From Candidatus Poribacteria bacterium (lineage in GTDB: Bacteria > Poribacteria > WGA-4E > WGA-3G), in assembly GCA_028821605.1 (NCBI GenBank), contig JAPPFM010000041.1:62001-126000 (forward strand): DNA of 64,000 bases. The letters are read 5' to 3'. The first letter of the stretch is position 1; each line of letters begins with the position of its first letter. The position numbers and the translations under genes were made by a program. Under the pieces are notes generated by a model. The model had not been told where the DNA came from and did no database searches. It saw nothing but the letters and a program-made list of their open reading frames with translations. This document shows, piece after piece, positions 27,042 through 53,529 of this stretch.

Positions 27042-27174
27042 GTTTGCATAACGTGTAAATTGTCCGATGAACCCGAATTGCATTTAGATTCACGCAACCT
27101 TTTGGTGAAATATGCAGGTTTCCAAAACCTACTATTCCACTGTAAATTGCTATCCAATAAGGAGGAAAATTTCA

Positions 27175-28002
27175 ATGCGGAAATTTTATCAGTTCACGCT
27201 TGCGACAGCAATTATTTTTGCACTGGTTGTGAGCATTTCACACCTTGCACTTGCACAAGGGAAGGTCAATATCAAAGATGGTCCCTTAAAAGAAGCGGAT
27301 TGGTTAAAAGATCCAGCTCCAGAACTGAACGAGGACCATTCAGATAACAAGAACTGGGTCACGAAGTATTACGGACCCGATGGGAACTACGAAAACAACG
27401 GTGGATTCGGTAACTCTGCCCCGAAAGACCTTATCAAGGAAGGGACCGGTGGTAAACTGACTCAACCAAAACTGTCTACCATTGAAGGTTTGAAACTAAC
27501 ACAAACCGTTGATGTCGAGTGGGATAAGGGTCACGGAGGACCGAGAGGATGGGAGGTCTTTGAAATTGATCCCGCGAACTCTCACCACATGAATAGGGGT
27601 GGCCCTGGAGACAGCATTGATACCTACGGTATCCTCGTTATTAAGGCTCCGCAGAATATGAAGGCTGTGATGTCGCCTGCGCACGACGACCACGCCCAAA
27701 TCTGGATTAACGGCGAAAAGTGGTACAATAATTCGCGGTGGACAGGTGCCGTCCAGCAAGTCGACTTCAATATTGAAATTGACTTGCAGAAAGGTGGGAA
27801 TGTCCTCCTTTACCGGTGTGGCGAATCCGGTGGTGATGCGTATATGAACATTCATTTCGATGATAAAACGCATGATGTTGTTGACATCTATCCGGATAAA
27901 GCCGTAGATCAGAAAAGCTTCTTTAGAGAAGCCGCTGGTGCGCTCGCTGTTGATCCCGTTGATAAATTGGCAACAACGTGGGCAGAGATCAAACAGAAGT
28001 AG
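27175..28002 (+). CDS. Secreted beta-sandwich-like protein, paralogue 1 of 3
   Basis: The start at 27175 is fixed by AAGGAGG at 27159-27165 and gives 275 residues. A signal peptide covers about residues 1-29 (FATAIIFALVV-type core, cleavage after ALAQ). The mature part has WVTKYYGPDGNYENNGGFG, a FEIDPANSHHMNRGGPGD stretch and SPAHDDHAQIWINGEKWYNNSRW followed by GGNVLLYRCGESGGDAYMNIHF. The last block resembles the ligand-binding beta-sandwich ('PA14-like' or glycosidase sugar-binding) pattern D-x-A-x-x-W-x-N-G ... G-x-N-x-L-L. It is probably a periplasmic or extracellular carbohydrate-binding protein. It is the first of three tandem copies. Confidence 0.75.
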   Translation: MRKFYQFTLATAIIFALVVSISHLALAQGKVNIKDGPLKEADWLKDPAPELNEDHSDNKNWVTKYYGPDGNYENNGGFGNSAPKDLIKEGTGGKLTQPKLSTIEGLKLTQTVDVEWDKGHGGPRGWEVFEIDPANSHHMNRGGPGDSIDTYGILVIKAPQNMKAVMSPAHDDHAQIWINGEKWYNNSRWTGAVQQVDFNIEIDLQKGGNVLLYRCGESGGDAYMNIHFDDKTHDVVDIYPDKAVDQKSFFREAAGALAVDPVDKLATTWAEIKQK

Positions 28003-28050
28003 AAATTTTTGCTATTTTTGTAGGCGTGTTTGCTAAACACGCTTCGCTCG

Positions 28051-28088
28051 TGGCGGATTGTTGTACAACCGTGTACAGCAATTCGCCA
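28051..28088. repeat. Palindrome after paralogue 1
   Basis: TGGCGGATTG (28051-28060) pairs with CAATTCGCCA (28079-28088) with one mismatch. A closely similar but longer palindrome follows paralogue 3 at 30277-30320. With no T-run directly after it, it is a weaker terminator candidate than that copy. Confidence 0.6.
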
Positions 28089-28144
28089 TATCTTTATAAA
28101 CGAATCTGGGTTATGCTTTAATTTAACCCAGTGCTTTTAAATAC

Positions 28145-28258
28145 AGGACTTACGCAGCACCCTTTGCTGGCGAGGTGTTTTTGCTTGGGTATTTCCCCTA
28201 AAAACCTCGCCAGCGGCGTGTGGAATGTCCGTAGTTATCAGAAAATTGCGTAAGTCCT
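28145..28258. repeat. MITE-like element with nested inverted repeats
   Basis: Outer 12-bp perfect inverted repeats AGGACTTACGCA (28145-28156) and TGCGTAAGTCCT (28247-28258) enclose an inner perfect 10-bp stem, GCTGGCGAGG (28166-28175) and CCTCGCCAGC (28205-28214). The loop contains TTTTGCTTGGG. Part of the inner core recurs near 32711. About 114 bp, non-coding. Confidence 0.8.
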
Positions 28259-28287
28259 AAAATATTTATCTGTAAGAAGGAAACGAA

Positions 28288-29124
28288 ATGAAAATATTTT
28301 GTCAATTTATGCTCACGACGGCGATTATCTTTGCGCTCATTGTGAGCATCTCGCACCTTGCATTCGCACAGGCAAACGATATTGATGGTGGACCTTTGGC
28401 GGAAGGCGAACTCCTAAAAGATCCGGATCCCAACGGTGACAATCTTAGAGAAAATCACAGTAATGTTGACACGTGGATTACCAAGTGGTATGGTCCCGAA
28501 GGGAACTATGAAAACAACGGCACCTTTCAGGTTTCTTCTAAGAGAGATCTTATTGATGAGGGCACCAACGGTAAACTCACAGAAACCAAGCTCTCAACAG
28601 TCGCCGGTTTACAGCTGACACAAACCGTTGATATGGGATGGGATAAGGCTCACGGCGGCACGCGAAAATGGACAGTTTTTGAACTGGATCCGGCAGACGG
28701 AAACAATATGAACCGAGGCGGTCCTATTGATAATATTGATACCTACGGAATGATCGTTATTAATGCACCCGTCGCGAGGAAAGCCATCATGTCTCCAGCA
28801 CATGATGATCACGCCCAAATTTGGATTAACGGCGAAAAATGGTACAACAACTCCAGGTGGACAGGTGCCGCACGAACGATCCTTCACAACGTCGAAGTTG
28901 ATTTAAAAAAAGGTGCTAACGTGCTGCTCTACCGGGTTGGTGAATCCGGCGGTTCCGCGTATATAAACCTCCACTTTGATGATGACACCCACAAAGCCTG
29001 CAAAATTTACCCAGACAAGTCGAAAGACCAGAAAAGCTTCTTCAATGAAATTCGTGGGTTCCTGTCAGTTGATCCGACTGGAAAATTAACAACGCTCTGG
29101 GCAGATATTAAACGGAACCGTTAG
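28288..29124 (+). CDS. Secreted beta-sandwich-like protein, paralogue 2 of 3
   Basis: A 278-residue paralogue of the genes on both sides. The signal peptide is MKIFCQFMLTTAIIFALIV through about residue 27 (AFAQ). It shares DPDPNGDNLRE with paralogue 3, and WITKWYGPEGNYENNG and DDHAQIWINGEKWYNNSRWT with both. Paralogue 1 is the more divergent of the three in the N-terminal mature region. An AAGGAAACG site precedes the ATG. The MITE-like element separates it from paralogue 1. A strong terminator follows it, so paralogue 3 is transcribed independently. Function is unknown beyond probable extracellular ligand binding. Confidence 0.75.
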   Translation: MKIFCQFMLTTAIIFALIVSISHLAFAQANDIDGGPLAEGELLKDPDPNGDNLRENHSNVDTWITKWYGPEGNYENNGTFQVSSKRDLIDEGTNGKLTETKLSTVAGLQLTQTVDMGWDKAHGGTRKWTVFELDPADGNNMNRGGPIDNIDTYGMIVINAPVARKAIMSPAHDDHAQIWINGEKWYNNSRWTGAARTILHNVEVDLKKGANVLLYRVGESGGSAYINLHFDDDTHKACKIYPDKSKDQKSFFNEIRGFLSVDPTGKLTTLWADIKRNR

Positions 29125-29133
29125 TGAAACGAA

Positions 29134-29170
29134 AGCCCTTGTCCAGTCTTTTCAGACAAGGGCTTTTTTT
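29134..29170 (+). terminator. Rho-independent terminator
   Basis: The arms AGCCCTTGTC (29134-29143) and GACAAGGGCT (29155-29164) are a perfect 10-bp stem followed by a run of T ending at 29170. It ends transcription of paralogue 2. Confidence 0.9.
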
Positions 29171-29246
29171 ACGTTCCGAGGGACACTGGACAGAATCGTA
29201 GGTTAACTTGAATGTAGAGAAACTCAACTATTGTTCTATAACTCTC

Positions 29247-29275
29247 TTGACAAATCTCTGTTAAGATGTTATAAT
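29247..29275 (+). promoter_or_regulatory. Promoter upstream of the third secreted paralogue
   Basis: TTGACA at 29247-29252 and TATAAT at 29270-29275, 17 bp apart, match the sigma-70 consensus exactly. Transcription would start near 29282, about 115 bp before the ATG at 29397. Confidence 0.75.
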
Positions 29276-29396
29276 AACTTGTAATGTTGAACGCTGTTTC
29301 AACGTTATATAATTTGTTGATAAAGAAACTCAGGTCGCCTATAGCGCGTCCTGATGACTTTAGTTTTTAATCTCAAAAAAGGATATTGGATATAGA

Positions 29397-30230
29397 ATGA
29401 AAAGATTTTATACGTTAACACTCGCAATTGCGATTATGTTCACACTCATTGTCAGTGGCTCACATCACGTATTTGCGGCTGACCTCATCCAAGGAGGTCC
29501 CTTGGCTGAAGATCAACTCTTAGCAGATCCAGATCCCAACGGTGACGATCTTAGAGAAGATCACAGTGACGTAGAAACGTGGATTACGAAGTGGTACGGA
29601 CCCGACGGCAACTACGAAAATAACGGGACCTTCCAAGTTTCCGGTCCGATGGACTTCATCGACGAAGGAAGCGGCGGTAAACTGACCCAGTCCTCACTTT
29701 CAACGATGGAAGGGCTGCTTATGACACAGGACATCGATATGGAATGGGGCGATGACCACGGCGGTGACCGTGCGTGGACTGTCTTTGAAATTGATCCCGC
29801 TGATGGCAACAATATGAACAGAGGCGGACCCATTGATAATATCGATACCTATGCTCTTATCGTTGTCGATTCTCCGAGTGATATGAAAGCTGTAATGTCG
29901 CCTGCACACGACGACCACGCACAGATCTGGATTAACGGCGAAAAGTGGTACAACAATACAAGATGGACAGGTGCCGCACGAACGATCCTTCACAACGTCG
30001 AAGTCGATTTACAAAAAGGTGCCAACGTGCTGCTCTATCGATGCGGCGAATCTGGCGGTTCCGCGTATTTCAACCTCCACTTTGACGATGCAACCAATGA
30101 TGCCGTTACAATCTATCCCAAAGATTCAACCGATAAAGATGGTTTCTTTGATGAAATCTTGCCGTTGACTGCTGTCGAGCCCACTGGGAAATTGACAACA
30201 ATTTGGGCAGATATTAAGAAACAGAAATAA
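29397..30230 (+). CDS. Secreted beta-sandwich-like protein, paralogue 3 of 3
   Basis: A 277-residue paralogue with signal peptide MKRFYTLTLAIAIMFTLIV (cleavage near HVFAA). The mature protein keeps the family blocks WITKWYGPDGNYENNG, FEIDPADGNNMNRGGPIDN and DDHAQIWINGEKWYNNTRW, and a GANVLLYRCGESGGSAYFNLHF strand pair. It shares the segment AARTILHNVEVDL with paralogue 2, while paralogue 1 differs there. It has its own consensus promoter and is followed by a palindromic terminator. It is the most acidic of the three near the N-terminus. Confidence 0.75.
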   Translation: MKRFYTLTLAIAIMFTLIVSGSHHVFAADLIQGGPLAEDQLLADPDPNGDDLREDHSDVETWITKWYGPDGNYENNGTFQVSGPMDFIDEGSGGKLTQSSLSTMEGLLMTQDIDMEWGDDHGGDRAWTVFEIDPADGNNMNRGGPIDNIDTYALIVVDSPSDMKAVMSPAHDDHAQIWINGEKWYNNTRWTGAARTILHNVEVDLQKGANVLLYRCGESGGSAYFNLHFDDATNDAVTIYPKDSTDKDGFFDEILPLTAVEPTGKLTTIWADIKKQK

Positions 30231-33862: not shown

Positions 33863-34615
33863 ATGCGCATCCAAATCCAAGCCGATGTTGGGGACGGCAT
33901 CACGTTCCCCGTTAATTACAACCATCTACTCGCAGGCGTAATCTACCGATTCCTCGCCGAATCCGACCCTGAATACGCCTCATTTCTACACGAGGAAGGT
34001 TACCGCGCTGCAGAGAAACGTTTCAAACTCTTCACTTTCTCGCAACTCATGGCGGAACGCCGACGCGTTACCGGTGAGAAGATCCATTTCCGTTCAACTT
34101 TAACGTGGTCGGTCTCTTCCCCAGTAGAACGATTCTTATCCCATTTCGCGGATACATTGCTAACGGAAGGTAGCTTATCCTTTGGTCAGCGGCGGTTACC
34201 GATTAGAGATGTCACTATACCACGCATCCCCCGTTTCCGATCAGAAATGCATTTCCGATGCCTCTCCCCGATTGTAATGACCACCACGCGCGAGCGGGAT
34301 GGCAAACAAGCAATGCACTATTGCATGCCCGACGATCCAGCACTCTCCGAACTCATCCGTCAGAACCTAATCCGCAAACACGAAGCAATTCACGCTCGCG
34401 TTCCCCACGACGATACCCTGACCTTCGCGTTTGATAAAAACTATATTGATAGGCGAAAGGGACGCGTCACTCGTCTCGTAGATTACAAAGGTATCAAGAT
34501 AAGAGGCACAATGTGCCCATTCCGTGTCACTGGAAGTCCTGCGTTAATCCAGATCGGTTACGAATGCGGTTTCGGCGACAAAAATAGTGCTGGTTTCGGC
34601 ATGGCAGAAGTATAA
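33863..34615 (+). CDS. cas6: CRISPR-associated endoribonuclease Cas6
   Basis: A 250-residue repeat-specific endoribonuclease that cuts the pre-crRNA inside each repeat. The N-terminal region has the VNYNHLLAGVIYRFL stretch with a histidine in the usual catalytic neighbourhood. The C-terminal glycine-rich loop, GYECGFGDKNSAGFGMAEV, is diagnostic of Cas6. A GGAGG site lies upstream of the ATG. It is the first gene of the locus and is separated from cas8 by a second promoter. Cleavage is expected before the last 8 nt of the repeat (ATCGAAAC), giving a typical 5' handle; that position is inferred from other type I-B systems. Confidence 0.93.
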   Translation: MRIQIQADVGDGITFPVNYNHLLAGVIYRFLAESDPEYASFLHEEGYRAAEKRFKLFTFSQLMAERRRVTGEKIHFRSTLTWSVSSPVERFLSHFADTLLTEGSLSFGQRRLPIRDVTIPRIPRFRSEMHFRCLSPIVMTTTRERDGKQAMHYCMPDDPALSELIRQNLIRKHEAIHARVPHDDTLTFAFDKNYIDRRKGRVTRLVDYKGIKIRGTMCPFRVTGSPALIQIGYECGFGDKNSAGFGMAEV

Positions 34616-34658: not shown

Positions 34659-34692
34659 ATATTATGGCGTTTTTTGAAAGGAGGTTAGTACT

Positions 34693-36084
34693 ATGCCAAT
34701 CTATGAAAAACTGATGGGGAATCCGTTTGTCGATGCAGGAGTTTGTGGAATTTGTGAGTGGTTAGGGCGCAGTATGCAACCGGAACAGATTACTACCGAT
34801 GATCTTGAACAAGTTGTTGACGACGTTGCACCGATGATGCAAACGGATGCTGGTTGGAGAAACCTACACGGTGTTTTCCCAAATAGTGTTTTGACAAACG
34901 CTGCGTACCGGAAGCAAGATCAGGTTGAATTGCTCAGGAAAGAGTGTAAAGCGTATTTGGACACAATCGTTGAGTTGGAACAAACTGGAGATTGTATGGG
35001 ATGTGGTAGACGTACTGCAAATGCATGGCTTTCAAGAACAAATATTCCGCTTACTGGTTCTGGAAAGTTACGCAACTTCTACCCGACTTTTGCTGAAGGG
35101 GCTGGTTACTGTTCCGCGTGTGCCTTTGCTATTCAACTATCTCCACTCGCTTTTGTGGCAACTGGTGGTAAATTTCTCACTTTGCACTCCAATTCATGGA
35201 AAGCACTGAGGAGTTGGGCACGCGTTTGTGTGGGTGATGTTCGCCAGCAGCAACTTCAACAAGACATGACAGGGTGTTACAATCCAGGCTACGCAAATCC
35301 ACGAAATGGACTGTTTTATATGGCACGGGAAATGGTTCAGTTTCAGGAAATGCGGACCGATGAGAATATAACGATGCAGGTCTATTGTTTTACAAATTAC
35401 AATCAGGGACCTGAGCTTGAAATCTATTACATGCCTGCCCCCGTGTTTAAATTTTTGCGCATCGTCTATCAAAGTGAATTCAAAACCGCATGGCAAGGAA
35501 TTGTCCAAAGTACTTATGTGGTCAACTGGGATAAAGTTAAGTCCGAGGCAGATTATAAGAATCGCACCAACCTTGTATATGAATTTCTGTTGGAGGATCG
35601 CTCTATTCTTAGGTTCTTTCTATACCGGAACTCTCGAAAGATTCGAGGAAATTGGGAACTACTTTCACTCTACCTAAAGGAGGTCAGAGCTATGGAACAA
35701 ATACAGTTGGATAAAATCAAACAGGTCGGCGACCTAATTGCAAAGTGCATCCAAGAATCTGAGAGCGATAAACGGCTCAAGCAATTAGAACGTGCTAAAA
35801 GTTACGGTGAATGCAGAAATATCCTGAGATACGTTATTCGGGATAGAATTCAACAAGGCGCGCCGGAACCGCTCTTTTCGATTGATGATTATATGGAATA
35901 CCTTTTTCCCACAAGCGATAGTTTTGCTGCTACACCTTGGAGAGAGACTCGCGACCTGTTACTCTTTCGGATTTACGAACAACTTCACGGTTGGCTCAAA
36001 GAACAAGGTTTTGTTGATTTTGATGAAGATAATACATCAGGTGTTGATGATACATCTGAAAACGAATTGAATCAGGAGGATTAA
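34693..36084 (+). CDS. cas8: Type I-B Cascade large subunit Cas8 (Cst1, CXXC-CXXC family)
   Basis: A 463-residue large subunit that recognises the PAM and helps recruit Cas3. Cysteine pairs at 18/21 (CGIC), 101/104 (CMGC) and 140/143 (CSAC) form the zinc-finger pattern that names the Cst1 family of the Tneap-type I-B systems. The ATG has an ideal AAAGGAGGT eight bases upstream. Overall similarity to other Cas8 families is expected to be low, so assignment rests on the CXXC motifs, position and the flanking Cst2-type cas7. An internal translation start at codon 334 probably yields Cas11. Cas7 begins 2 nt after its stop. Confidence 0.88.
   Translation: MPIYEKLMGNPFVDAGVCGICEWLGRSMQPEQITTDDLEQVVDDVAPMMQTDAGWRNLHGVFPNSVLTNAAYRKQDQVELLRKECKAYLDTIVELEQTGDCMGCGRRTANAWLSRTNIPLTGSGKLRNFYPTFAEGAGYCSACAFAIQLSPLAFVATGGKFLTLHSNSWKALRSWARVCVGDVRQQQLQQDMTGCYNPGYANPRNGLFYMAREMVQFQEMRTDENITMQVYCFTNYNQGPELEIYYMPAPVFKFLRIVYQSEFKTAWQGIVQSTYVVNWDKVKSEADYKNRTNLVYEFLLEDRSILRFFLYRNSRKIRGNWELLSLYLKEVRAMEQIQLDKIKQVGDLIAKCIQESESDKRLKQLERAKSYGECRNILRYVIRDRIQQGAPEPLFSIDDYMEYLFPTSDSFAATPWRETRDLLLFRIYEQLHGWLKEQGFVDFDEDNTSGVDDTSENELNQED
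35692..36084 (+). CDS. cas11: Cas11 small subunit translated from within cas8
   Basis: In frame with cas8, codon 334 is ATG at 35692 and is preceded by a perfect AAAGGAGGT at 35676-35684, seven bases away. The product would have 130 residues (MEQIQLDKIKQVGDLIAKCI onward), mostly helical, as expected of a Cascade small subunit. Independent translation of Cas11 from the 3' part of cas8 is established for type I-B, I-C and I-D systems. The start signal here is as strong as the one for cas8 itself. No protein data can be seen from sequence, so the product remains a prediction. Confidence 0.8.
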   Translation: MEQIQLDKIKQVGDLIAKCIQESESDKRLKQLERAKSYGECRNILRYVIRDRIQQGAPEPLFSIDDYMEYLFPTSDSFAATPWRETRDLLLFRIYEQLHGWLKEQGFVDFDEDNTSGVDDTSENELNQED

Positions 36085-36086
36085 TC

Positions 36087-37118
36087 ATGTCTAAACACCT
36101 AATCGGATTAACTCTAATTGACGCGCCGCATTCTGCCCTAAACAACGCTGGGACGGAAGCCTCCCAGGCAACTGAAAACATTGTTGCTGTCAAAAAACTT
36201 CAGAAAGGAGGAAATACCTATCCCTATGTTTCGGGACAAGCATGGCGAAATTGGTGGCGCACTACCCTTGAGCAAGAATTTGATGATTGGAGCAGTTCAC
36301 CCATAGAACGTGAGAAGAAAATCGCTTTTACTGCTGCTGACCCGGTGACTTACGACGATGACGATGTCTTTGGCTATATGCGAGCACAAAGCGAAATGCA
36401 GGGGAAGAAAAAGGTTAATGTAACGGTAACCCGCTTATCCCCTCTCAAGTGTTCACCCCTTATTTCAATTGATCCACAGATCCCAACAAACGATTTTGGT
36501 GTCATGGCACGCCAAGAAGATGATCCTGTGCCTTATGAACATCAATTTTATTCTTGTATCTTACAAGGTATCTTTTCCTTAGACCTCAATGCGGTCGGTA
36601 CTTTTTCGGATATTAATAGGACGGGCTATAAGAACATTGCGTCAAGTTATGTTCAAACTATTGAGGACGCAGGCGGCACACAAGTTAATGATACTTCAGA
36701 GTGGACACTCCCAAAAGAGATTCGGATTAGACGCTGTCAACAGACCCTCGAAGCACTTCCGATTCTCAGTGGCGGTGCAAAACTGACATCACATCTCACG
36801 GATGTTACACCAAAATTAATTGTGCTTTCAGTGCTTGATGGAGGCAATCATCCTTTCATGAATTTAATGGTTGAGCGAAATAGAGTCGGTGAATTATCCG
36901 TAGAGGCGCTGCGCGAAGTTATAGAGGATTACAAAGACCGATTCTGTGACGCGATTTACATCGGTAGACGGAGCGGGTTTATGGATGAATTAGATGAACA
37001 ACTCAACGATTTGGCCACCAATAATAATCTGCCGTGCGAAATTGTTTACGATTCGCCAAATAAAGTGATCGCCCAACTCTCACAAAAGTTAGAAACTCAC
37101 ATCGGAGACGCACCATGA
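36087..37118 (+). CDS. cas7: Cascade backbone protein Cas7 (Cst2/DevR family)
   Basis: A 343-residue RAMP protein that polymerises along the crRNA spacer. The start, MSKHLIGLTLIDAPHSALNNAG, and the following PYVSGQAWRNWWRTTLEQEF are typical of the Cst2/DevR group, once called CRISPR autoregulators. The GGAKLTSHLTDVTPK region is near residue 230. A CAGGAGG site precedes the ATG, which lies 2 nt after the cas8 stop. The cas5 start overlaps its stop (ATGA), so the two are translationally coupled and stoichiometry would be set by ribosome-site strength. Confidence 0.93.
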   Translation: MSKHLIGLTLIDAPHSALNNAGTEASQATENIVAVKKLQKGGNTYPYVSGQAWRNWWRTTLEQEFDDWSSSPIEREKKIAFTAADPVTYDDDDVFGYMRAQSEMQGKKKVNVTVTRLSPLKCSPLISIDPQIPTNDFGVMARQEDDPVPYEHQFYSCILQGIFSLDLNAVGTFSDINRTGYKNIASSYVQTIEDAGGTQVNDTSEWTLPKEIRIRRCQQTLEALPILSGGAKLTSHLTDVTPKLIVLSVLDGGNHPFMNLMVERNRVGELSVEALREVIEDYKDRFCDAIYIGRRSGFMDELDEQLNDLATNNNLPCEIVYDSPNKVIAQLSQKLETHIGDAP

Positions 37119-37843
37119 AGGTCCTTCGGATTCGCATTACTGGATGGGTTTCGTCGTTTCGGAATCCGCTATTCATTAGTGGATTCCAACCGACACTCCC
37201 TTTGCCTCCACTCTCAGCAATATATGGTCTCCTCACTGCTGCGAAAGGGGAATGGGTTACACCGCACGATACCTCAATCGGATTCGTTTTTCGCAGTAAC
37301 GGGAAAGCAGTTGACTTAGAAACTGTCTATGAATTCGCAGGGAAATTAGATGCTAAATCAAATATCAACAGACGCGAATTTCTTGTTGATCCCGAACTCT
37401 ATCTTTATATACCTGAAATGCGGTTGAAGGAAGCATTTGAACGTCCGCGCTATCCCTTGCTCTTAGGACGTTCTTCTGATCTGGCAACTGTGGAATCAAT
37501 AGCGGAAATTGAATTAGAGAGTAGATCGGAAACGACCTATCAAGATACGCTGCTCCCCTTTCCTGATGCACAACTATATGGACAGGTTCAGGCACTCCCA
37601 ACTCATTTCACAGCAGAAATCCCGCGCCGTCCTTGTGGCACTCGTGCCTATTGTCTGATAACAGAAAAAATTGTGTACCATGGCGATGTCTGGCATGATC
37701 CAAAAATGGATTGGGGAGTCTATCTACACGAACGCATCCTTGGAGAATTTACAGTTCCAAACGAGCAAGCCAGGAAACCTACTGACAAAAATTATGAAAT
37801 CCCAGATGTGAAGGGACAACAGGGGCAACTTCCGGGCATCTAA
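37115..37843 (+). CDS. cas5: Cascade subunit Cas5 (Cas5t type)
   Basis: A 242-residue RAMP protein that binds the 5' handle of the crRNA and caps the Cas7 filament. It opens MKVLRIRITGWVSSFRNPLF and continues with TLPLPPLSAIYGLLTAAKGE, matching the conserved Cas5 N-terminal pattern (substitution G-W for the commoner R/A-F-W region), and a later Pro/Leu-rich RYPLLLGRSSDLATVESI block. The start overlaps the end of cas7 by four bases. The gene is followed by palindromes and a transposase remnant rather than directly by cas3. Confidence 0.9.
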   Translation: MKVLRIRITGWVSSFRNPLFISGFQPTLPLPPLSAIYGLLTAAKGEWVTPHDTSIGFVFRSNGKAVDLETVYEFAGKLDAKSNINRREFLVDPELYLYIPEMRLKEAFERPRYPLLLGRSSDLATVESIAEIELESRSETTYQDTLLPFPDAQLYGQVQALPTHFTAEIPRRPCGTRAYCLITEKIVYHGDVWHDPKMDWGVYLHERILGEFTVPNEQARKPTDKNYEIPDVKGQQGQLPGI

Positions 37844-37853
37844 CCCGAATATC

Positions 37854-37878
37854 GTAGGGGCGAGGTCTCCTCGCCCGC
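37854..37878. repeat. REP-like palindrome left of the RAYT remnant
   Basis: GGGCGAGGTCTCCTCGCCC at 37858-37876 forms an 8-bp stem, preceded by GTAGG. It abuts the point where transposase homology begins. Confidence 0.8.
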
Positions 37879-37879
37879 A

Positions 37880-38092
37880 TTAGGCAAGATCGTGGCCTAT
37901 TTCAAATACCAATCCACCAAGCATATTAACCAACACTACAATACACCCGGGACGCGTGTTTGGCAAAGAAATTATCATGATCATGTCATCCGAGACGACC
38001 CAGATTTACAACGACTTCGCCAATATATTCAGGATAATCCGATGAAATGGGAATTAGATCAATTGCATCCTGACAATCCGTCCAGATGGTAA
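37880..38092 (+). pseudogene. REP-associated tyrosine transposase (RAYT) C-terminal remnant
   Basis: An open stretch of about 70 codons ends at TAA 38090-38092. It reads LGKIVAYFKYQST at its start and contains GTRVWQRNYHDHVIRDDPD and IQDNPMKWELDQLHPDN. These blocks are the C-terminal part of RAYT (IS200-like Y1) transposases. The N-terminal part with the histidine pair of the HUH site is missing, so it is inactive. Homology begins directly at the end of a palindrome. It lies between cas5 and cas3 and is flanked by inverted REP-like palindromes. A GTG-initiated small protein is possible but unlikely to be functional. Confidence 0.75.
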
Positions 38093-38112
38093 GGGACATT
38101 TAAACGAAACAG

Positions 38113-38187
38113 AAGCGGACGTGGGGACCACACCCCTACGAAATCATGAAAACACTCATAACGGGCGTGGAGACCACGCCCCTACGG
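38113..38187. repeat. REP-like palindromes right of the RAYT remnant
   Basis: Two units end in CCCCTACG: one at about 38117-38140 (GTGGGGACCACACCCCTACG) and one at about 38164-38186 (GGCGTGG then CCACGCC). They are oriented opposite to the unit at 37854. The right-hand one supplies the GGAG that precedes the cas3 start. Confidence 0.8.
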
Positions 38188-38198
38188 AGAAAAAATCC

Positions 38199-40460
38199 AT
38201 GTCAATATTGCTTGCGAAAAGCGATCCACGGGAAAACCTTCAAGAACATACAGAGAATTGCCTTTCAGTATACGATAGCCTTCGACAACGGATGCCGTTT
38301 TTAGCCGAGATTACCAAAGAGCCAGATTTCTTTGAGCATCTTTTCTACGCTGTCGCACTCCACGATTTTGGAAAAGCAGCAACAGGTTTTCAACAGCAGC
38401 TCACCGATGACACACGATGGAACTATCGTCACGAAATCCTCTCAACTGGATTTGTAGTAACCCTACAATTACCGGAGGAAGCAAAGCAAGCAATCGCACT
38501 TGCCGTTTTAACACATCACAAGGATATTGGGACACTGAATGAGAAATATCCGTGTAGACCCAACAATGAGTATGGCTATCGAGATTGGCAAAAGCATGTT
38601 GATGAACTCACACCAAATTGGGATGCTTTGATGGAAATTCAGGAACAAGTCTCTCATTGGTTTCATAATTGGTTTCCGAACGCAACATGTTTATGGTTAC
38701 CTGTTACCTCACCCGATCAACTCATTAGCGGATACCGAGAATATCTCGATCCCTACTTGATTAACAAAGAAGATGGAGAATTGACCGCCTTACACGGCAC
38801 CTACGGCATGCTTATGCGCGGGTGTATGATTGCCTGTGATCATCTCGCTTCAGCAGGGAAAAACGAAATCCAGACAGCACTTGATAACCTTGCAGCAGAA
38901 CTGACGCAACATGTTAAAGAGAAGGCAAAAGAAAAAGGTCGACAATTTCACGGATGGGAACCCTTTCAAGAAGCCTCTGGTGAAACAATTGGACAGATCA
39001 TGCTCTCTGCACCGACAGGCTCCGGCAAAACCGAAGCGGCTTTGCTCTGGTCAGAAAAAAATCAATGTGAAACACTTGGAAACCGTGTCTTTTATGTTTT
39101 ACCTTATACAGCAAGTATCAATGCAATGTATGAGAGGTTAAAAGGACTCGTATCGGACGACAAAATCGGTATGTTGCACGGAAAAGCGAATTACTTTGTT
39201 TACAAAGATCTTGTGGATAAAGAATATACTTACCAAGAGGCAGCAGTAGGAGTTCGTGAGCAGCAGAATTTGACGAAGAAAATATGTCGTCCTTACAAGG
39301 TACTAACACCTTTTCAACTGCTAAAAGCATTTTTCGGTATACGCGGCTTTGAGATGCAGATGGCAGAGATGTCGCAAGGGCTTTTTATTTTTGACGAAAT
39401 CCACGCCTATGACCCGCACACCACAGCACTCATCCTAACAATGATAAAGAAACTCCGTGAAGATTATGATGCAAAATTCTGCATTATGACTGCTACAATG
39501 CCAAAGTTTCTTAAACAGATGATTAACAACGCACTTGGGCAACTCACACCGGTTGAAATGGATGCCCAAGAACGGAATAGATTCACTCGACACAGAGTGG
39601 TGTTGCTTGATAACAGCATCCACGAGGCAATTCCGTTGATTGAAGAACGTCTCATGCAAGGACAACAGGTCATGGTCGTCTGCAACACCGTCAATCAGGC
39701 ACAAAATGTATTTCAGAAATTGCAAAGTGTAACCGACAATGCTAAACTCCTTCACAGTCGATTTATCCTTCGCGATCGAGAGCGTATTGAACAGGAACTT
39801 GAAAACGCAGATCTCCTTGTCGGTACGCAAGCAGTTGAGGTTTCGCTTGACATTGATTTTGATTGCCTCTTTACAGAACCAGCACCGATAGACGCGCTCA
39901 TCCAACGTTTCGGGAGAATAAACAGGAAAGGCAAGAAGGGCCTCTGTGATGTTCACATAAGCAAAGAGGGTGGCGAATACGACAAATATATCTATTCTAC
40001 CGAAAAGGTTGAGCGCACTATAAAAGTGTTCGCATCTGTAGGTGATGACAACCTCCAAGAATCAGAAATCCAACGTCTAATTGATAAAGTCTATAGCGAA
40101 GGATACGATGAAAAAGAGGAAGATACGTTTATTAAGGCAAAACGGATGTTTGACAGACATCTACAAGACATCGTGCCATTTATTGAAGATGCTAAAGGAC
40201 GTAAAGAGTTTAACGAACTCTTTAAAAGTGTTGAGGTTGTGCCAATGTGCTATGAACAAGAATACTTAGCCGAGATTGACACGCGTAGGTATTATGAGGC
40301 GAGAGCCTATATCGCTCAAATCAGTTACAACCAGTTTGCACGACTAAAAAAAGAAAAGCAAATCAACGAAAATGAACGTATAAATCAGTGTTTCATAAAC
40401 GTGCATTATGATAAGACACTCGGTCTGATATTGGACGAATATAATCCAAATATCCTATAG
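38199..40460 (+). CDS. cas3: CRISPR-associated nuclease-helicase Cas3
   Basis: The start chosen gives MSILLAKSDPRENLQEHTEN, a normal Cas3 opening, for 753 residues; an ATG at 38121 is in frame but lies inside repeat sequence. The N-terminal HD nuclease has AVALHDFGKA (His55, Asp56), WNYRHEI (His78) and LTHHKD. The SF2 helicase shows Walker A APTGSGKTE (271-279), DEIHAYD, MTATMPKF and the motif VI region LIQRFGRINRKGKKG. It is recruited by Cascade after target binding to nick and degrade DNA. A palindrome lies directly before the ribosome site, and it is 355 bp from cas5. Confidence 0.95.
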   Translation: MSILLAKSDPRENLQEHTENCLSVYDSLRQRMPFLAEITKEPDFFEHLFYAVALHDFGKAATGFQQQLTDDTRWNYRHEILSTGFVVTLQLPEEAKQAIALAVLTHHKDIGTLNEKYPCRPNNEYGYRDWQKHVDELTPNWDALMEIQEQVSHWFHNWFPNATCLWLPVTSPDQLISGYREYLDPYLINKEDGELTALHGTYGMLMRGCMIACDHLASAGKNEIQTALDNLAAELTQHVKEKAKEKGRQFHGWEPFQEASGETIGQIMLSAPTGSGKTEAALLWSEKNQCETLGNRVFYVLPYTASINAMYERLKGLVSDDKIGMLHGKANYFVYKDLVDKEYTYQEAAVGVREQQNLTKKICRPYKVLTPFQLLKAFFGIRGFEMQMAEMSQGLFIFDEIHAYDPHTTALILTMIKKLREDYDAKFCIMTATMPKFLKQMINNALGQLTPVEMDAQERNRFTRHRVVLLDNSIHEAIPLIEERLMQGQQVMVVCNTVNQAQNVFQKLQSVTDNAKLLHSRFILRDRERIEQELENADLLVGTQAVEVSLDIDFDCLFTEPAPIDALIQRFGRINRKGKKGLCDVHISKEGGEYDKYIYSTEKVERTIKVFASVGDDNLQESEIQRLIDKVYSEGYDEKEEDTFIKAKRMFDRHLQDIVPFIEDAKGRKEFNELFKSVEVVPMCYEQEYLAEIDTRRYYEARAYIAQISYNQFARLKKEKQINENERINQCFINVHYDKTLGLILDEYNPNIL

Positions 40461-40486: not shown

Positions 40487-40996
40487 ATGCAAAACCCAGA
40501 CCACCCCAACATCACAGGCACAGCCATCAACTATCTCTATATTTGCACACGCAAACTCTGGTTCTACCGACATCACCTCGACATGGAGCATACCTCCGAA
40601 TCCGTAGACCTCGGCAAACACCTCCACGACGAGAGTTATCCACGCGAAAAACGCAGAGAATTGGACATTGACAGCCTTGTGAAGATAGACTACATTGACA
40701 AACAAGGTATTATACACGACATCAAATACGGCACAACGATGGAAACAGCACACATTATGCAGATATGTTATTACCTCTATCTCCTCAAACAGAAGGGTGT
40801 GTCAAATAAGAAAGGCATCATCAACTACCCGCGCCAACGGCAGACGACCGAAGTAGAACTCACACCCGAAAGAGAAAAAGAGATAGAAAACGCCATTGAA
40901 AAAGTCAACGAAATTACAGCGTTGCCAACACCACCGCATGCCGACTATATGAAAATCTGTAAATCCTGTAGTTATCAAGAACTCTGCTGGAGTTAA
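40487..40996 (+). CDS. cas4: CRISPR-associated exonuclease Cas4
   Basis: A 169-residue RecB-type protein with an iron-sulfur cluster. Cys20 (NYLYIC) and Cys158, Cys161 and Cys167 (CKSCSYQELC) are the four cluster ligands. The nuclease core shows GIIHDIKYG and QICYYLYLL, the family's D/E-x-K and Q-x-x-x-Y motifs. Cas4 trims prespacer ends and helps choose PAM and orientation together with Cas1-Cas2. It follows cas3 by 26 bp. The length is typical. Confidence 0.93.
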   Translation: MQNPDHPNITGTAINYLYICTRKLWFYRHHLDMEHTSESVDLGKHLHDESYPREKRRELDIDSLVKIDYIDKQGIIHDIKYGTTMETAHIMQICYYLYLLKQKGVSNKKGIINYPRQRQTTEVELTPEREKEIENAIEKVNEITALPTPPHADYMKICKSCSYQELCWS

Positions 40997-41051
40997 AGGG
41001 AGCAGGCATGCTCCGCCATGCCGTAAGCCAACCATGGGAGGAAAACCAATT

Positions 41052-42047
41052 ATGTCTCGAAACTACTACATCACCCAACCCGGCAGACTGCGCCGAAAGG
41101 ATAACACCCTTTACTTAGAGCCAGAGGAAGCACCACGGGTACCGATACCGGTTGAGGATATTGACGCACTCTATCTCTACGGCGAACTCGACCTCAACAC
41201 CAGACTCCTCAACTTCCTCACCCAAAAGCACATTCCGTTTCACGTGTTCAACTACTACGGCTACTATGCTGGGAGTTACTACCCCAGGGAATATCTCAAT
41301 TCCGGCTCCCTGCTTGTCAAACAGGTACAACACTATGAAAATCACACCAAACGGATGGCACTTGCACAGGAGTTTGTCGCCTCCGCTGTTTTCAATATGC
41401 TGCGAATTTTGCGGTATCATACGAACCGCGGTAAGGATTGCAGCGCACAAATTGAATCAATTGAGACGATCCTTGCAGAAAGCAGCACAGCAAAAAACAC
41501 AAATGAATTGATGGGTTACGAGGGCATCATCCGAGACACGTATTACACCGCATTCAATACGATTTTAGCGTTAAAAACGCCATTTGAAAAACGTGTTCGT
41601 CGTCCGCCAGACAATCCGATTAATGCCATCATCTCCTTTGGAAACTCGATGATGTATACAGCATGCCTTACGGAAGTCTACCGCACGCAGCTCAACCCGA
41701 CAATCAGTTTCCTCCATGAACCCGGCGACCGGCGATTCTCGTTAAGTCTTGACCTCGCCGAAATTTTCAAACCGCTTATCATTGACCGAATTATTTTCCG
41801 TTTGTTCAACCGTCAGCAACTCAACGAATCAAAACATTTTGAGACGAACATTGATGGGTGTTATCTCAATGAAAAGGGACGGAAATTATTTATTGCTGCA
41901 TTTGATGAACAATTAAAGCAGACCGTTTCGCATCGAAAGTTGAAACGGCATGTCTCTTATCAACGCCTCATCCGTTTGGAATGCTATAAACTCATCAAGC
42001 ACCTCGTTGGAATGGAGACCTATCAGGCACTGCGTCCGTGGTGGTAG
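41052..42047 (+). CDS. cas1: CRISPR integrase Cas1
   Basis: The start chosen gives MSRNYYITQPGRLRRKDNTL and follows GGGAGG at about 41035; an in-frame ATG at 41034 overlaps that site. The product is 331 residues. Metal-binding catalytic residues are Glu157 (GYEGIIRDTYY), His222 and Asp234/Glu237 (FLHEPGDRRFSLSLDLAEIFKP). Length and motifs match the type I-B Cas1 of the Tneap group. It integrates trimmed spacers at the leader side of the array with Cas2. Confidence 0.95.
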   Translation: MSRNYYITQPGRLRRKDNTLYLEPEEAPRVPIPVEDIDALYLYGELDLNTRLLNFLTQKHIPFHVFNYYGYYAGSYYPREYLNSGSLLVKQVQHYENHTKRMALAQEFVASAVFNMLRILRYHTNRGKDCSAQIESIETILAESSTAKNTNELMGYEGIIRDTYYTAFNTILALKTPFEKRVRRPPDNPINAIISFGNSMMYTACLTEVYRTQLNPTISFLHEPGDRRFSLSLDLAEIFKPLIIDRIIFRLFNRQQLNESKHFETNIDGCYLNEKGRKLFIAAFDEQLKQTVSHRKLKRHVSYQRLIRLECYKLIKHLVGMETYQALRPWW

Positions 42048-42086: not shown

Positions 42087-42350
42087 ATGTACATCATCCT
42101 CGTCTACGATATCGAAGTTGAACGGGTCGCAAAGGTGTGCAAATACCTCCGACAACATCTCAATTGGATTCAGAACTCAGTTTTTGAGGGGCAATTAACC
42201 AAAGCACAGTTCGCTCGCGTCAAATCTGGATTGGCAGCGATCACCGACCCAGAAAAGGATTCCGTTGTCATCTACCAACTCCGCGATGCACGGTGGATGA
42301 ATAAGGAGGTCATGGGCGTAGATAAAAATCCAGCGACAAACCTATTGTAG
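42087..42350 (+). CDS. cas2: CRISPR-associated protein Cas2
   Basis: An 87-residue ferredoxin-fold dimer partner of Cas1. It opens MYIILVYDIEVERVAKVCKYL with the Asp of the first strand, followed by FEGQLTKAQFARVK. It is the last gene of the operon and is immediately followed by the leader. The spacing of 39 bp from cas1 is consistent with one transcript. Confidence 0.95.
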   Translation: MYIILVYDIEVERVAKVCKYLRQHLNWIQNSVFEGQLTKAQFARVKSGLAAITDPEKDSVVIYQLRDARWMNKEVMGVDKNPATNLL

Positions 42351-42607: not shown

Positions 42608-45600
42608 CTTTTAATCGAACCAGTATGGAATCGAAACTTATGTGCGTTCTCATGGGTATTTTTTCAGCGTTGTCTTTTAATCGAACCAGTATGGAATCGA
42701 AACTATCTTCTTCCTCCAACACATCAAAAAACGGGTTGCCTTTTAATCGAACCAGTATGGAATCGAAACAGAAAATGACGTTTACAGAACCTCCAAGCGA
42801 TGACCCTTTTAATCGAACCAGTATGGAATCGAAACTCATTTCGGCGATCGGGTTTCGACGGTGTGTCTCTTCTTTTAATCGAACCAGTATGGAATCGAAA
42901 CTCACGCTAAACATGTGTTTGGAGGCAAATATGTTTATCTTTTAATCGAACCAGTATGGAATCGAAACGTTATTACTATCATTAGAGATGCACAACATTC
43001 CACTTTTAATCGAACCAGTATGGAATCGAAACGGGTAACACCCTGTAAGGACGAATTCAGTTGCTTTTCTTTTAATCGAACCAGTATGGAATCGAAACTT
43101 GCGATACTTCCGTTTCGATTTCACATCAACATCAACTTTTAATCGAACCAGTATGGAATCGAAACAGTCCAAGTCGCCGATCTCACTGTTCCACACATGC
43201 TTCCACTTTTAATCGAACCAGTATGGAATCGAAACAGAATACGGTTCTAAAAACACCCGTCGTGTTCACTTCTTTTAATCGAACCAGTATGGAATCGAAA
43301 CTGCTTTTGATGCTTTGAGAACATACACAGGGTCATCGCCTTTTAATCGAACCAGTATGGAATCGAAACCGTGAAAAAGTTGATGCGTGATCATGGCAAG
43401 GTTAACTTTTAATCGAACCAGTATGGAATCGAAACGTGTTTCCTTACTGGACTCAGACGGGATAATAAACTCTGCTTTTAATCGAACCAGTATGGAATCG
43501 AAACAGTGGTTTATGCGTTGGGTTAGGTAACTCCAAAACGCTTTTAATCGAACCAGTATGGAATCGAAACAACTCTGGAAAGACCACATAGGGCATAACC
43601 TCTTTGGCTTTTAATCGAACCAGTATGGAATCGAAACTTTTCAAGGTGCTTTAGGTAATCGGCATACTTCCTTTCCTTTTAATCGAACCAGTATGGAATC
43701 GAAACTTGCGCGTTGGTTATCGTATTTAAAAGGGAATTACTTTTAATCGAACCAGTATGGAATCGAAACTGTTTTTGGATACGTAGGGATTTCGATATGT
43801 TCGATGACTTTTAATCGAACCAGTATGGAATCGAAACTTGTGTCTTCTGGTATGTGGCGTGGCAATGCGATCTCCCTTTTAATCGAACCAGTATGGAATC
43901 GAAACTATAAACGAGGCAGCACCGCCTTTGCGTTCATCGATCTCTTTTAATCGAACCAGTATGGAATCGAAACCATCGACATTCGTGAACTTTGTCCAGT
44001 CGTGTGTGACTTTTAATCGAACCAGTATGGAATCGAAACACAGGTGCAACTGTTCTGCATGTAGATGAAAGTTTTCTTTTAATCGAACCAGTATGGAATC
44101 GAAACTGATAACACTGCCACCAGTTTGCTCGTTAATTGATTTCCTTTTAATCGAACCAGTATGGAATCGAAACTCGGAAGCGTTACGCCTGTGATGCTAT
44201 CAGCATCCGACACTTTTAATCGAACCAGTATGGAATCGAAACAGCGAACGCAATCAGTGCCGTCTATACCTATACCGCTTTTAATCGAACCAGTATGGAA
44301 TCGAAACAGTATGTAGCCAGTGCTCGCGTCCTCTCTCGCCCACTTTTAATCGAACCAGTATGGAATCGAAACTCCAGTTCTATCTGCTTGTTCTGTAAAA
44401 GTGCTTTCTTTTAATCGAACCAGTATGGAATCGAAACTTGTTCCATTGAAAGATACGGCTGTAAAGTTATACTTTTAATCGAACCAGTATGGAATCGAAA
44501 CCCAGGTTTGGGCGCAACGTGTGAATTCTGATGCTGACTTTTAATCGAACCAGTATGGAATCGAAACTTGCGCCATATCGTAATATCATGGTAGGGAAAA
44601 TAACTTTTAATCGAACCAGTATGGAATCGAAACTGAAACGACGAAGTGCTACATTCGTAGGTGAATCCAAGCTTTTAATCGAACCAGTATGGAATCGAAA
44701 CGTTGCCAGGTAAATGGCATCATCATACGAAATTTCACTTTTAATCGAACCAGTATGGAATCGAAACGGTCTCTGAGGATTTTGATTTTGATGATAAGTT
44801 TGCCTTTTAATCGAACCAGTATGGAATCGAAACGTTGCTGTTTTTGTAGTGCCTGATCTTTACATGGAGCATTCTTTTAATCGAACCAGTATGGAATCGA
44901 AACTATCTACAGGAATTTACGTACATGGATATTGGTGGACCTTTTAATCGAACCAGTATGGAATCGAAACCCAGGTTTGGGCGCAACGTGTGAATTCTGA
45001 TGCTGATACCTTTTAATCGAACCAGTATGGAATCGAAACTGTAGTAAAGGGGGTTATCGTTAATTCGGTCTTGGCTTTTAATCGAACCAGTATGGAATCG
45101 AAACCGTATCGATTCAATGATATTGGGGGTTCTTTCTCAAACTTTTAATCGAACCAGTATGGAATCGAAACTCTATCCTTGCCGTCTTTAGAGATAGGCA
45201 TTAGACTTTTAATCGAACCAGTATGGAATCGAAACTGCAACCGAATGCCCCGACACAGCCGAATGACCCGACTTTTAATCGAACCAGTATGGAATCGAAA
45301 CGCAAGTATGGCTATTATGAGGGATGGGACGTTTGTCTTTTAATCGAACCAGTATGGAATCGAAACTTCTGGTGCGCATGCGGCGATCTCGATAGCGACG
45401 AACCTTTTAATCGAACCAGTATGGAATCGAAACTCAGCAACGGGTGGACTCTCGCCTCGGATGTATGCCTTTTAATCGAACCAGTATGGAATCGAAACCC
45501 GTCTGAATGCGGATTTTACGGCTTGGATAGGCTTTCTTTTAATCGAACCAGTATGGAATCGAAACTCGGCTTGTATCGGAATTACGGGTTGCCTTTCTAA

Positions 45601-48600
45601 CCCTTTTAATCGAACCAGTATGGAATCGAAACTGAGTCGTATATCAAGGCACAGTATGCAATGGGTACACCTTTTAATCGAACCAGTATGGAATCGAAAC
45701 TTTTATCTTCGATCATTGCTTCTTGATCGTAGTTACTTTTAATCGAACCAGTATGGAATCGAAACTTATACGGTACAACCCACAGATTTTTTCGACTATA
45801 TTTCTTTTAATCGAACCAGTATGGAATCGAAACGGAAGCGGAACAGCAAGGGCTTTTGGAGGTTGTTGACTTTTAATCGAACCAGTATGGAATCGAAACC
45901 TCCAGACACAACCCTTCTCATATCTCCACCCCTTACTTTTAATCGAACCAGTATGGAATCGAAACATGCTCACCCATATTTGATCGGCTATCAATTCATC
46001 GTCTTTTAATCGAACCAGTATGGAATCGAAACGCGAGCAAAGACTTACCTGAAGGCGGAACAGTCAGCTTTTAATCGAACCAGTATGGAATCGAAACGAA
46101 GAGGATGAAGTTTTACGCGACGGAGTCGATTGTCTTTTAATCGAACCAGTATGGAATCGAAACCTGAACAAGCACATTCTTTTCGACTGGGGAATCCGAC
46201 TTTTAATCGAACCAGTATGGAATCGAAACGGATTTTTGAAAGGCTTTTTGACTACGAGATCGGTAACTTTTAATCGAACCAGTATGGAATCGAAACGTTC
46301 GCAGTTGATCGCCCACCACACCGACGGGTGAGTGACTTTTAATCGAACCAGTATGGAATCGAAACTGATCTCACCCGACGTGCCGTCTATCGCAAATGTG
46401 CTTCTTTTAATCGAACCAGTATGGAATCGAAACATCCCTTCTGTTCTTGGAGCGTATCAGTTTCATGAACTTTTAATCGAACCAGTATGGAATCGAAACA
46501 CTCGGACATTTTGGCGGTGATGGTGCTATCCGTGCTTTTAATCGAACCAGTATGGAATCGAAACAATCGTTTCCAATACTGCCAATAATGTCTATCGTCT
46601 CTTTTAATCGAACCAGTATGGAATCGAAACAAAGTCATATCTTTGCTTGAATCATAACTGTAATCCGTCTTTTAATCGAACCAGTATGGAATCGAAACTC
46701 TACAGATGTTTTAATTGTCCCCAGTGATGGCTCATCTTTTAATCGAACCAGTATGGAATCGAAACAGCAGCTCCTCACCGATTCGCGCTTGCAGTCTAAA
46801 CGCTTTTAATCGAACCAGTATGGAATCGAAACGATCAAACATCTATGAGTTTGACAGCGAGGACTTTGCTTTTAATCGAACCAGTATGGAATCGAAACTG
46901 ACGAAGCACAACGGCAAGCCGAGCGTGAAGCCTGCCTTTTAATCGAACCAGTATGGAATCGAAACCTTCTTTGTTGGCGAAAGTGTCTATCATGTCAATG
47001 ACTTTTAATCGAACCAGTATGGAATCGAAACGGGTCTTACGATCTCCCCTGGGCGGACGCAATGATGCTTTTAATCGAACCAGTATGGAATCGAAACCCA
47101 CTTATGAAGCAAGAAACGCTCTCACTTCAGTCACTTTTAATCGAACCAGTATGGAATCGAAACGTATTCTTTGAGGGGAGTCTCTTTAAACTGACAAGCT
47201 TTTAATCGAACCAGTATGGAATCGAAACCTTTGACCGCATGTTATCACCCCACATCCGCACAACTTTTAATCGAACCAGTATGGAATCGAAACTTGCTTG
47301 ATTTCTCTACGTCTTTCAAGTGCTACAACTTTTAATCGAACCAGTATGGAATCGAAACACATGCAGATTCGTGCCATCAAACGCCATCGAATTGGCTTTT
47401 AATCGAACCAGTATGGAATCGAAACTCCTGATATGCCGGCAAGTTTGAAACAAAAGGGTACCGCTTTTAATCGAACCAGTATGGAATCGAAACACGGTAT
47501 GGGTGCGTATATCACGCGTGTCACTGCGCTTTTAATCGAACCAGTATGGAATCGAAACTCTGTACTTGCGTAGATGTCTTGTAGGGTTTCAAGGCTTTTA
47601 ATCGAACCAGTATGGAATCGAAACCATCCCAATGATGCATATCACACCGCAACAGGTCACTTTTAATCGAACCAGTATGGAATCGAAACTGCTGTAGACA
47701 ACATCTGCGCGCTTTCTAAAATCTGCTTCTTTTAATCGAACCAGTATGGAATCGAAACTTGATACTCACACCAGAGCGACCGCTCTCAGAGCGTTCTTTT
47801 AATCGAACCAGTATGGAATCGAAACTCGAAAATCACGTTGTATGCCGACGGCACATCTTACCTTTTAATCGAACCAGTATGGAATCGAAACAGATAATCA
47901 TAGACCTCCATATTCGCCGCCTGCGCCTCTCTTTTAATCGAACCAGTATGGAATCGAAACGGTCTTGACGGAAGGTTATCGTGAATATGTGTTCTCGCTT
48001 TTAATCGAACCAGTATGGAATCGAAACATATCGAAGCAAGCGGACGGATAGAAGAGCTTACTGTCTTTTAATCGAACCAGTATGGAATCGAAACGTGATT
48101 TGAAATATACGTCCGTGACGGGAATCTCACTTTTAATCGAACCAGTATGGAATCGAAACTGAACAGCAGAAAATCAAAGCGCGCTTCGATCCTATCAACT
48201 TTTAATCGAACCAGTATGGAATCGAAACTTGGTCTATGATGCGGGTATTACAGATGAGGGACAGCCTTTTAATCGAACCAGTATGGAATCGAAACTCAAC
48301 GAAGAGATGATATTTGATGCTGAAACCTTATTCTTTTAATCGAACCAGTATGGAATCGAAACGTTCTCTTGGGGCGAAGTGGTAGGAACTGGGAATACCT
48401 TTTAATCGAACCAGTATGGAATCGAAACCCTGCATGGGGGGGCAACAGGCGCGACGGCTTTCGCAACTTTTAATCGAACCAGTATGGAATCGAAACCAGA
48501 CTTGCTCAAGATTACCAACTGCTCTAATGACTCACTTTTAATCGAACCAGTATGGAATCGAAACTTTCCTCGGCGGTATGGATATGGCTTGAATCCAAAG

Positions 48601-51600: not shown

Positions 51601-53018
51601 TTTAATCGAACCAGTATGGAATCGAAACGAGTTTATTGAGTTTCAAACGGGTTACCCTCTACGTACTTTTAATCGAACCAGTATGGAATCGAAACTTCGG
51701 TAAAAGCCTATCGCCCTTCAACCTCCAGATCTTTTAATCGAACCAGTATGGAATCGAAACCGCTGCGCATGGGAATACCTCAGCATCCTCGAGAACTTTT
51801 AATCGAACCAGTATGGAATCGAAACAACCAACTCCGACCCCTGAAGAACCTAAATCCAAACTTTTAATCGAACCAGTATGGAATCGAAACTTGCCCATCT
51901 GGTGATTCCTTGGAACGATAGGTTTGACTTTTAATCGAACCAGTATGGAATCGAAACTCTGCTGAACTTTCGCAGTCGGTTGAGCAACGGTACTTTTAAT
52001 CGAACCAGTATGGAATCGAAACTTCATTCGACTGCTCTGAAATCTGCCATGCAGGTTCGTCTTTTAATCGAACCAGTATGGAATCGAAACTGATCTTCAT
52101 AGACGAGATAACGTCCTCGAACCCATCTTTTAATCGAACCAGTATGGAATCGAAACACAACGCACCCTTGACCTAAAAGAGCGTGAACTTGCTTTTAATC
52201 GAACCAGTATGGAATCGAAACCAGTCGTGCCTTCATTTGATAGTGGCTCTCGCCCCCAGCTTTTAATCGAACCAGTATGGAATCGAAACCCTGAAAGACG
52301 CGAAGGCATTTGGACAGCCGATTTCACTTTTAATCGAACCAGTATGGAATCGAAACATGGTTCGGACTGCCCGGATTACAATCGCCCATCACTTTTAATC
52401 GAACCAGTATGGAATCGAAACCTATATGCCTCCATAGCGTGTTATCATACGGCGATGACTTTTAATCGAACCAGTATGGAATCGAAACCGACCCACACAG
52501 CGGACAATGCCACTTGAAAACGTCCCTTTTAATCGAACCAGTATGGAATCGAAACATGTGCATATAGAGGAGCATGCGCGAAATATCATAGACTTTTAAT
52601 CGAACCAGTATGGAATCGAAACCCAGACTCGTCAATTCTACCCGGAAACTTCCCGAATGCTTTTAATCGAACCAGTATGGAATCGAAACTGTGGTTCTGT
52701 ATCATGGCGTGGCGTAATCTTGAGCTTTTAATCGAACCAGTATGGAATCGAAACCAAAGTCTTCAGCTGCATCCAAGCCAATGGCATCGTCTTTTAATCG
52801 AACCAGTATGGAATCGAAACACAAAAAAGGTAGGAACCCCAAGAAACGCTACTATGCTTTTAATCGAACCAGTATGGAATCGAAACATGTGATGCGGTTC
52901 ATAGCCTACAATGTTCGGATGCCTTTTAATCGAACCAATATGGAATCGAAACTGATCTCAGAGATTTCAGGCGGCGAATACCCCTCAAAACTTTTAATCG
53001 AACCAGTATGGAATCGAA
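42608..53018 (+). CRISPR. CRISPR array, 157 repeats counted by eye, type I-B
   Basis: The 30-bp repeat begins CTTTTAATCG and ends ATGGAATCGAAAC, so crRNAs should carry the handle ATCGAAAC, close to the ATTGAAAC of other type I-B arrays. I counted 157 repeats and 156 spacers at an average period of about 66.6 bp. Spacers are mostly 34-40 nt; the longest is 44 nt at 49764-49807. Repeats I checked are identical except for the last two: the one at 52923 has a G-to-A change and the one at 52991 loses its last two bases. Decay there and a promoter at the other end place the leader beside cas2. One spacer sequence is present twice (44502-44537 and 44971-45009). Confidence 0.97.
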
Positions 53019-53145
53019 TTGGTTTTTGGCGGGTATTACTTTGATGATGCGAATAGATCCCAAATGGTTGCTAAGATGTCCATAATCCGCGTGAATATAT
53101 CCGGTTTTTTCTTTTTCATTTCTTTATCCTCGAGGAGTAATATGT
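53019..53145. other. Array-distal flank before the membrane protein gene
   Basis: No repeat or gene is present. A ribosome site, GAGGAG, lies at the end of the stretch. T-rich runs around 53100-53125 are not preceded by a convincing stem. Confidence 0.4.
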
Positions 53146-53529
53146 ATGCGATTTCTCTCACCAAATAAACAGAAACAGGAAACCGCCAGATTTGCTGGAG
53201 GTATTGTCTCCTTTGTCGGTGCTATGCTTGTCATGAGTGGTTACAGAACTGAAGATCTATTTTTGGTTGGCGCACTGCTGCTTATCTGGTATGGTATGTC
53301 GTGGTTTGTCTACCGGACGGATCCAGAGAAAATCACGCATTGGCTACAGCAATTATGGTATTTCCTACTTTTTTTGGTATTCTCGGTTCTCTGTGGCGTT
53401 ATTGCAGCATATCTTCCGGGCTGGATCGCCCATGAGATAGCAGGGATTCTGATTAACCTCGTCGTTTTCTTCTCTTTTCCGATACTTCTTTTCTGCCGCG
53501 GGGGTTCGTCAAAATCGGACACCTCTTGA
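53146..53529 (+). CDS. Small four-helix membrane protein beside the CRISPR array
   Basis: A 127-residue protein with about four hydrophobic helices (GGIVSFVGAMLVMSG; FLVGALLLIWYGMSWFVY; WYFLLFLVFSVLCGVIAAYL; IAGILINLVVFFSFPILLF) and charged ends. A GAGGAG site precedes the ATG. No family is recognised. It sits between the truncated last repeat of the main array and an orphan repeat about 30 bp after its stop, so it is enclosed by array-derived sequence. It may be a CRISPR-adjacent membrane protein, an insertion, or an unrelated gene near a decayed array end. Confidence 0.6.
   Translation: MRFLSPNKQKQETARFAGGIVSFVGAMLVMSGYRTEDLFLVGALLLIWYGMSWFVYRTDPEKITHWLQQLWYFLLFLVFSVLCGVIAAYLPGWIAHEIAGILINLVVFFSFPILLFCRGGSSKSDTS

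Follow-up and report, generated by a model that had tools for sequence, protein, structure and literature searches.

Does the cas8 gene of this Candidatus Poribacteria CRISPR-Cas operon carry, within its 3' third, a second gene encoding the Cas11 subunit of Cascade? The window, i.e., the whole 64,000-nucleotide stretch of DNA that was analysed, contains on its forward strand, in this order, cas6 (33863-34615; TIGR01877), cas8b1/cst1 (34693-36084), cas7 of the Cst2/DevR type (36087-37118; TIGR02585), cas5b (37115-37843; TIGR01895), cas3 (38121-40460 as the longest open reading frame, the true start being probably an ATG near 38199; TIGR01587, TIGR01596), cas4 (40487-40996; TIGR00372), cas1b (41034-42047; TIGR03641) and cas2 (42087-42350; TIGR01573, PF09827), followed by a CRISPR array of 159 repeats of 30 bases (42608-53657, same strand). 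The cas8 product, a Cascade large subunit of 463 residues, matches TIGR01908 with E=1e-39 and 136.8 bits (cut-off 19.4) and is also recognised by the PADLOC Cas8b models; its named relatives at 57-93% identity all belong to Candidatus Poribacteria. The system is type I-B with a Cas8b1/Cst1 large subunit, alongside a cst2-type cas7, cas5b, cas3 and cas6.

We did not recognise a standalone cas11 in the operon, whose open reading frames were all accounted for and gave no match to a cas11 family, and no cas11-like frame was found in the gap between cas5 and cas3. This gap (37844-38199, about 280-360 bases) contains a short frame that resembles, by eye and with no Pfam match, the end of a REP-associated transposase, as well as a repeat-like stretch, GTAGGGGCGAGGTCTCCTCGCCC.

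Some features of the array and of the rest of the window deserve mention in their own right. Two spacers (44502-44537 and 44971-45009), of 36 and 39 bases, are identical over their first 36 bases, as if one protospacer had been acquired twice with different trimming. The array is broken at 53021-53561 by 541 non-repeat bases, among them a short frame whose small product apparently spans the membrane, and the flanking repeats carry one or two mismatches. Farther upstream (27112-30230), three tandem paralogous genes encode secreted-looking proteins of 277-296 residues, the first without a Pfam match.

We consider it very likely that the 3' third of cas8b1/cst1 also constitutes a separate gene, cas11b (35692-36084, forward strand, in frame with cas8), produced by an internal translation start. 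The start signal, the conservation of its nucleotides and the helical fold predicted for the separate product form the basis for this gene, while the production of the protein, its position within the complex and the number of copies would follow what is known from other systems.

The signal itself was described accurately in the original prediction. A Shine-Dalgarno sequence, AAAGGAGGT (35676-35684), spans codons 328/329-331 (Lys-Glu-Val) and is followed by a seven-base spacer, CAGAGCT (35685-35691), and by an ATG (35692-35694) that is codon 334 of the 463-codon frame [(35692-34693)/3 = 333], leaving 130 codons before the TAA. Met334 of Cas8 would thus be Met1 of the predicted Cas11. The start of cas8 has the identical nine bases (34677-34685) at the identical spacing, AAAGGAGGT TAGTACT ATG, with the ATG at 34693. 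Over its full nine bases, AAAGGAGGT is complementary to the 3' tail of the 16S rRNA, GGATCACCTCCTTT; this tail was taken from four related genomes, as the 16S rRNA was not found in the organism's own assembly. The duplex energy of the internal site, -12.1 kcal/mol, was reached by only one of the 262 in-frame internal ATGs in the 38 long open reading frames of the 64,000-nucleotide window from which this null was drawn, namely the cas8 site itself, and the 1st percentile of the set lies at about -9.5 kcal/mol. Throughout the 6.0 Mb genome, the pattern AAAGGAGGT-N7-ATG occurs six times, two of them being the cas8 start and the internal cas8 site, against a single occurrence of a reversed control pattern.

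Taken gene by gene, this signal could have another origin. Random synonymous recoding of Lys-Glu-Val with the gene's own codon usage yields a Shine-Dalgarno of equal strength in about 10% of cases (p 0.1, not significant). Therefore, the signal of the single gene is suggestive and not decisive, and the case is carried by the comparison among relatives. Indeed, ordinary codons for these three residues can give GGAGGT, and with a per-gene p of about 0.1 one might suppose that the methionine and the Lys-Glu-Val codons are kept for the sake of Cas8 residues alone, the Shine-Dalgarno being a by-product and no Cas11 being made.

Relatives were drawn from genome collections and by searching whole genomes both inside the phylum and outside it; 31 distinct genes, window gene included, cover the site. 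The codon at the internal start is ATG in all of them, down to approximately 23-26% protein identity (L028, L029, L034 and L102, a Herpetosiphon plasmid gene) and also in L106, from outside the phylum; Met334 is the sole internal methionine among the listed invariant columns. Most of the 31 genes have the Shine-Dalgarno unchanged or with a single differing base; it is weaker in about six (L068, -3.8; L005, -6.6; L025 and L026, -7.7; L004 and L030, -8.0 kcal/mol), and the internal signal is the strongest in-frame internal start in 28 of the 31. The conservation check proposed with the original prediction thus returned no relative lacking the ATG, and nearly all keep the Shine-Dalgarno. In L068 (381 on the + strand), which shares its family with the window genome, the ATG is kept and the Shine-Dalgarno is eroded to AAATAAGGTT, possibly a natural weakening of Cas11 expression.

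The choice of synonymous codons bears directly on the by-product explanation. Where residue 329 is Lys, all 18 genes use AAG (background 31%); where it is Gln, all five use CAG (background 35%); and Glu330 is encoded by GAG in 23 of 23 (background 31%). Conservation of Cas8 residues would leave these wobble bases free, yet they are fixed. Since the counts come from related genes and are not independent trials, two other results are safer. Codons 329-335 rank first of 454 seven-codon windows for synonymous conservation after correction for pairwise gene similarity. Moreover, in the distant genes L028, L034 and L102 the distance between the motif AGGAGG and the ATG is longer by one base, so that the motif is read in a different frame, as Arg-Arg in place of Lys-Glu. 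This frame change is a clean comparative demonstration of selection on the start signal itself: since the motif persists with different residues, selection acts on the nucleotides themselves, beyond any constraint on the protein. We conclude that a Shine-Dalgarno arising merely as a by-product of Cas8 is very unlikely.

Structure prediction agrees with a separable product. As anticipated by the original prediction, which had described a helical protein of 130 residues, AlphaFold2 predicts with confidence that residues 334-463 alone form a helical bundle (mean pLDDT 84.5, pTM 0.76), with helices at 3-23, 27-33, 38-54, 64-71 and 83-105, pLDDT values of 90-98 in most helical blocks and an acidic tail predicted to be disordered from about residue 112. 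In the model of the whole Cas8, Met334 occupies the short stretch that separates helix 321-330 from helix 336-356, where the C-terminal bundle begins, so that the internal methionine falls on a modelled domain boundary.

The top Foldseek match of the whole model was chain I of a type I-C Cascade (E 4e-4); as its TM is only 0.24, the fold string agrees and the relative placement of the domains does not. With the 130-residue model, type I-A Cascade chains of 107-133 residues, whose identity was inferred from their length, appeared in the top ten with TM mostly about 0.5 and E above 1; no match had a significant E-value, the best one to a Cascade being 1.3. A sequence search of the PDB with Cas8 and Cas11 profiles gave no relevant match, Pfam and NCBIfam assigned no family to the 130-residue product, and PADLOC matched it solely as the end of Cas8b.

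The position of the site at a domain boundary is also what one might expect if the internal Shine-Dalgarno served Cas8 itself, as a translational pause aiding domain folding or as an entry site for ribosomes coupling translation to cas7. Pausing at Shine-Dalgarno-like sequences has been proposed in bacteria and is debated. However, a pause would work without an ATG 7-9 bases away, whereas all 31 genes have one, and cas7 has a Shine-Dalgarno of its own, AGGAGG near 36075, where cas8 ends. We thus regard a function confined to Cas8 or to coupling as scarcely credible, less so even than a by-product, and return to the internal start of cas11b as the preferred reading. The central claim of the original prediction, that this locus makes Cas11 from within cas8, is in our opinion well supported by the conservation and by the modelled fold.

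On this reading, ribosomes would bind the internal AAAGGAGGT through pairing with the 16S tail and would start at the ATG at 35692, giving a helical protein of 130 residues with the same sequence as the Cas8 C-terminal domain. Judging from solved Cascades, copies of this protein may line the inner belly of the complex, next to the C-terminal domain of Cas8, where they would hold the DNA strand that is displaced.

The ratio between the two products is a different matter. The internal signal had been claimed to be at least as strong as that of Cas8, and this part holds, as both have the same energy in the window gene (-12.1 kcal/mol). In the relatives, the medians are -11.8 for Cas8 and -12.1 for Cas11; among 29 genes, the Cas11 Shine-Dalgarno exceeds that of Cas8 by over 1 kcal/mol in 11 and is the weaker one in five, and when the cost of unfolding the mRNA is added, the Cas11 start is favoured in 22 of the 29. 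In the window gene, this opening cost is 8.6 for Cas11 vs 6.9 for Cas8. The further claim, that the signal implies several Cas11 copies per Cas8, did not stand: we rejected Shine-Dalgarno strength as proof, since the two signals are equal here and variable in relatives, and the ratio therefore cannot be derived from the sequence. Several Cas11 per Cas8 would nevertheless be plausible by analogy with the solved structures of other systems and compatible with the energies.

Outside the phylum, most of the Cst1-type genes examined have an in-frame start with a Shine-Dalgarno about 100-120 codons from their end: ATG in L102 (119 codons), L109 (102), L110 (109), L111 (99) and L112 (109), and TTG in L107 (112). 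Three others, L103, L104 and L105, have no strong site near that distance from the end. Only L102 and L106 were aligned residue by residue, the remaining genes being placed by distance from the end, so the distant cases other than these two are suggestive. In L106 (1218-2885, reverse complement), the internal start leaves 201 codons, and the predicted Cas11 is longer at its C-terminus by roughly 80 residues. On balance, we lean towards an internal Cas11 start being general to the Cst1 branch of Cas8 across phyla. If true, internal translation would be ancestral in this branch and not an invention scattered over it.

The original prediction also held that standard annotation misses the gene, and the annotated Herpetosiphon record gives only Cst1 over the internal site. 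This Cascade, if rebuilt from annotated genes, would miss a subunit, as with the Thermotoga maritima system.

Internal translation of Cas11 from cas8 in types I-B, I-C and I-D, on which the original prediction relied, is published (PMC11096372, PMC11899642, PMC7684278, PMC10212523). In the type I-B system of Synechocystis PCC 6714, as related in PMC11096372 citing McBride et al. 2020, Cas11b comes from an internal ribosome-binding site at the 3' end of cas8b, and the complex was solved with three Cas11b per Cas8b (PMC11096372). This system (PMC11096372) shares with ours the subtype and a Cas8 C-terminal domain identical to Cas11b, a helical bundle that is predicted here, whereas its Cas8b belongs to the Cmx8/MYXAN family and the Poribacteria Cas8 to Cst1 (TIGR01908). 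In Haloferax volcanii, also type I-B, cas8b has an in-frame internal ATG, as in our gene, and the small product is needed for efficient interference (PMC11899642); the archaeal site has a weak Shine-Dalgarno (GGATG), unlike the full nine bases of the Poribacteria cas8. Thermotoga maritima resembles our case in being type I-B with Cas11 predicted within cas8b1, where it is required for assembly; that the internal site of its Cas8b was silent in E. coli (PMC13199841) speaks against our reading. The TIGR01908 profile had no match in T. maritima, and its Cas8b1, although so named, therefore seems to belong to a different branch.

In type I-C, cas8 makes Cas11 by internal translation (PMC7684278, PMC11899642), with non-canonical small subunits from cas8 described in Desulfovibrio vulgaris (PMC7684278). 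The D. vulgaris Cascade gave the best fold match of our whole Cas8 model, but it is of a different subtype and the PDB search detected no sequence similarity to the Poribacteria Cas8. Internal translation of Cas11 in type I-D is reported in a review (PMC10212523). In the open literature, we found no paper showing Cas11 from a Cst1-type cas8. Altogether, the mechanism is already known for other I-B, I-C and I-D systems, and the Poribacteria case would extend it to the Cst1 branch.
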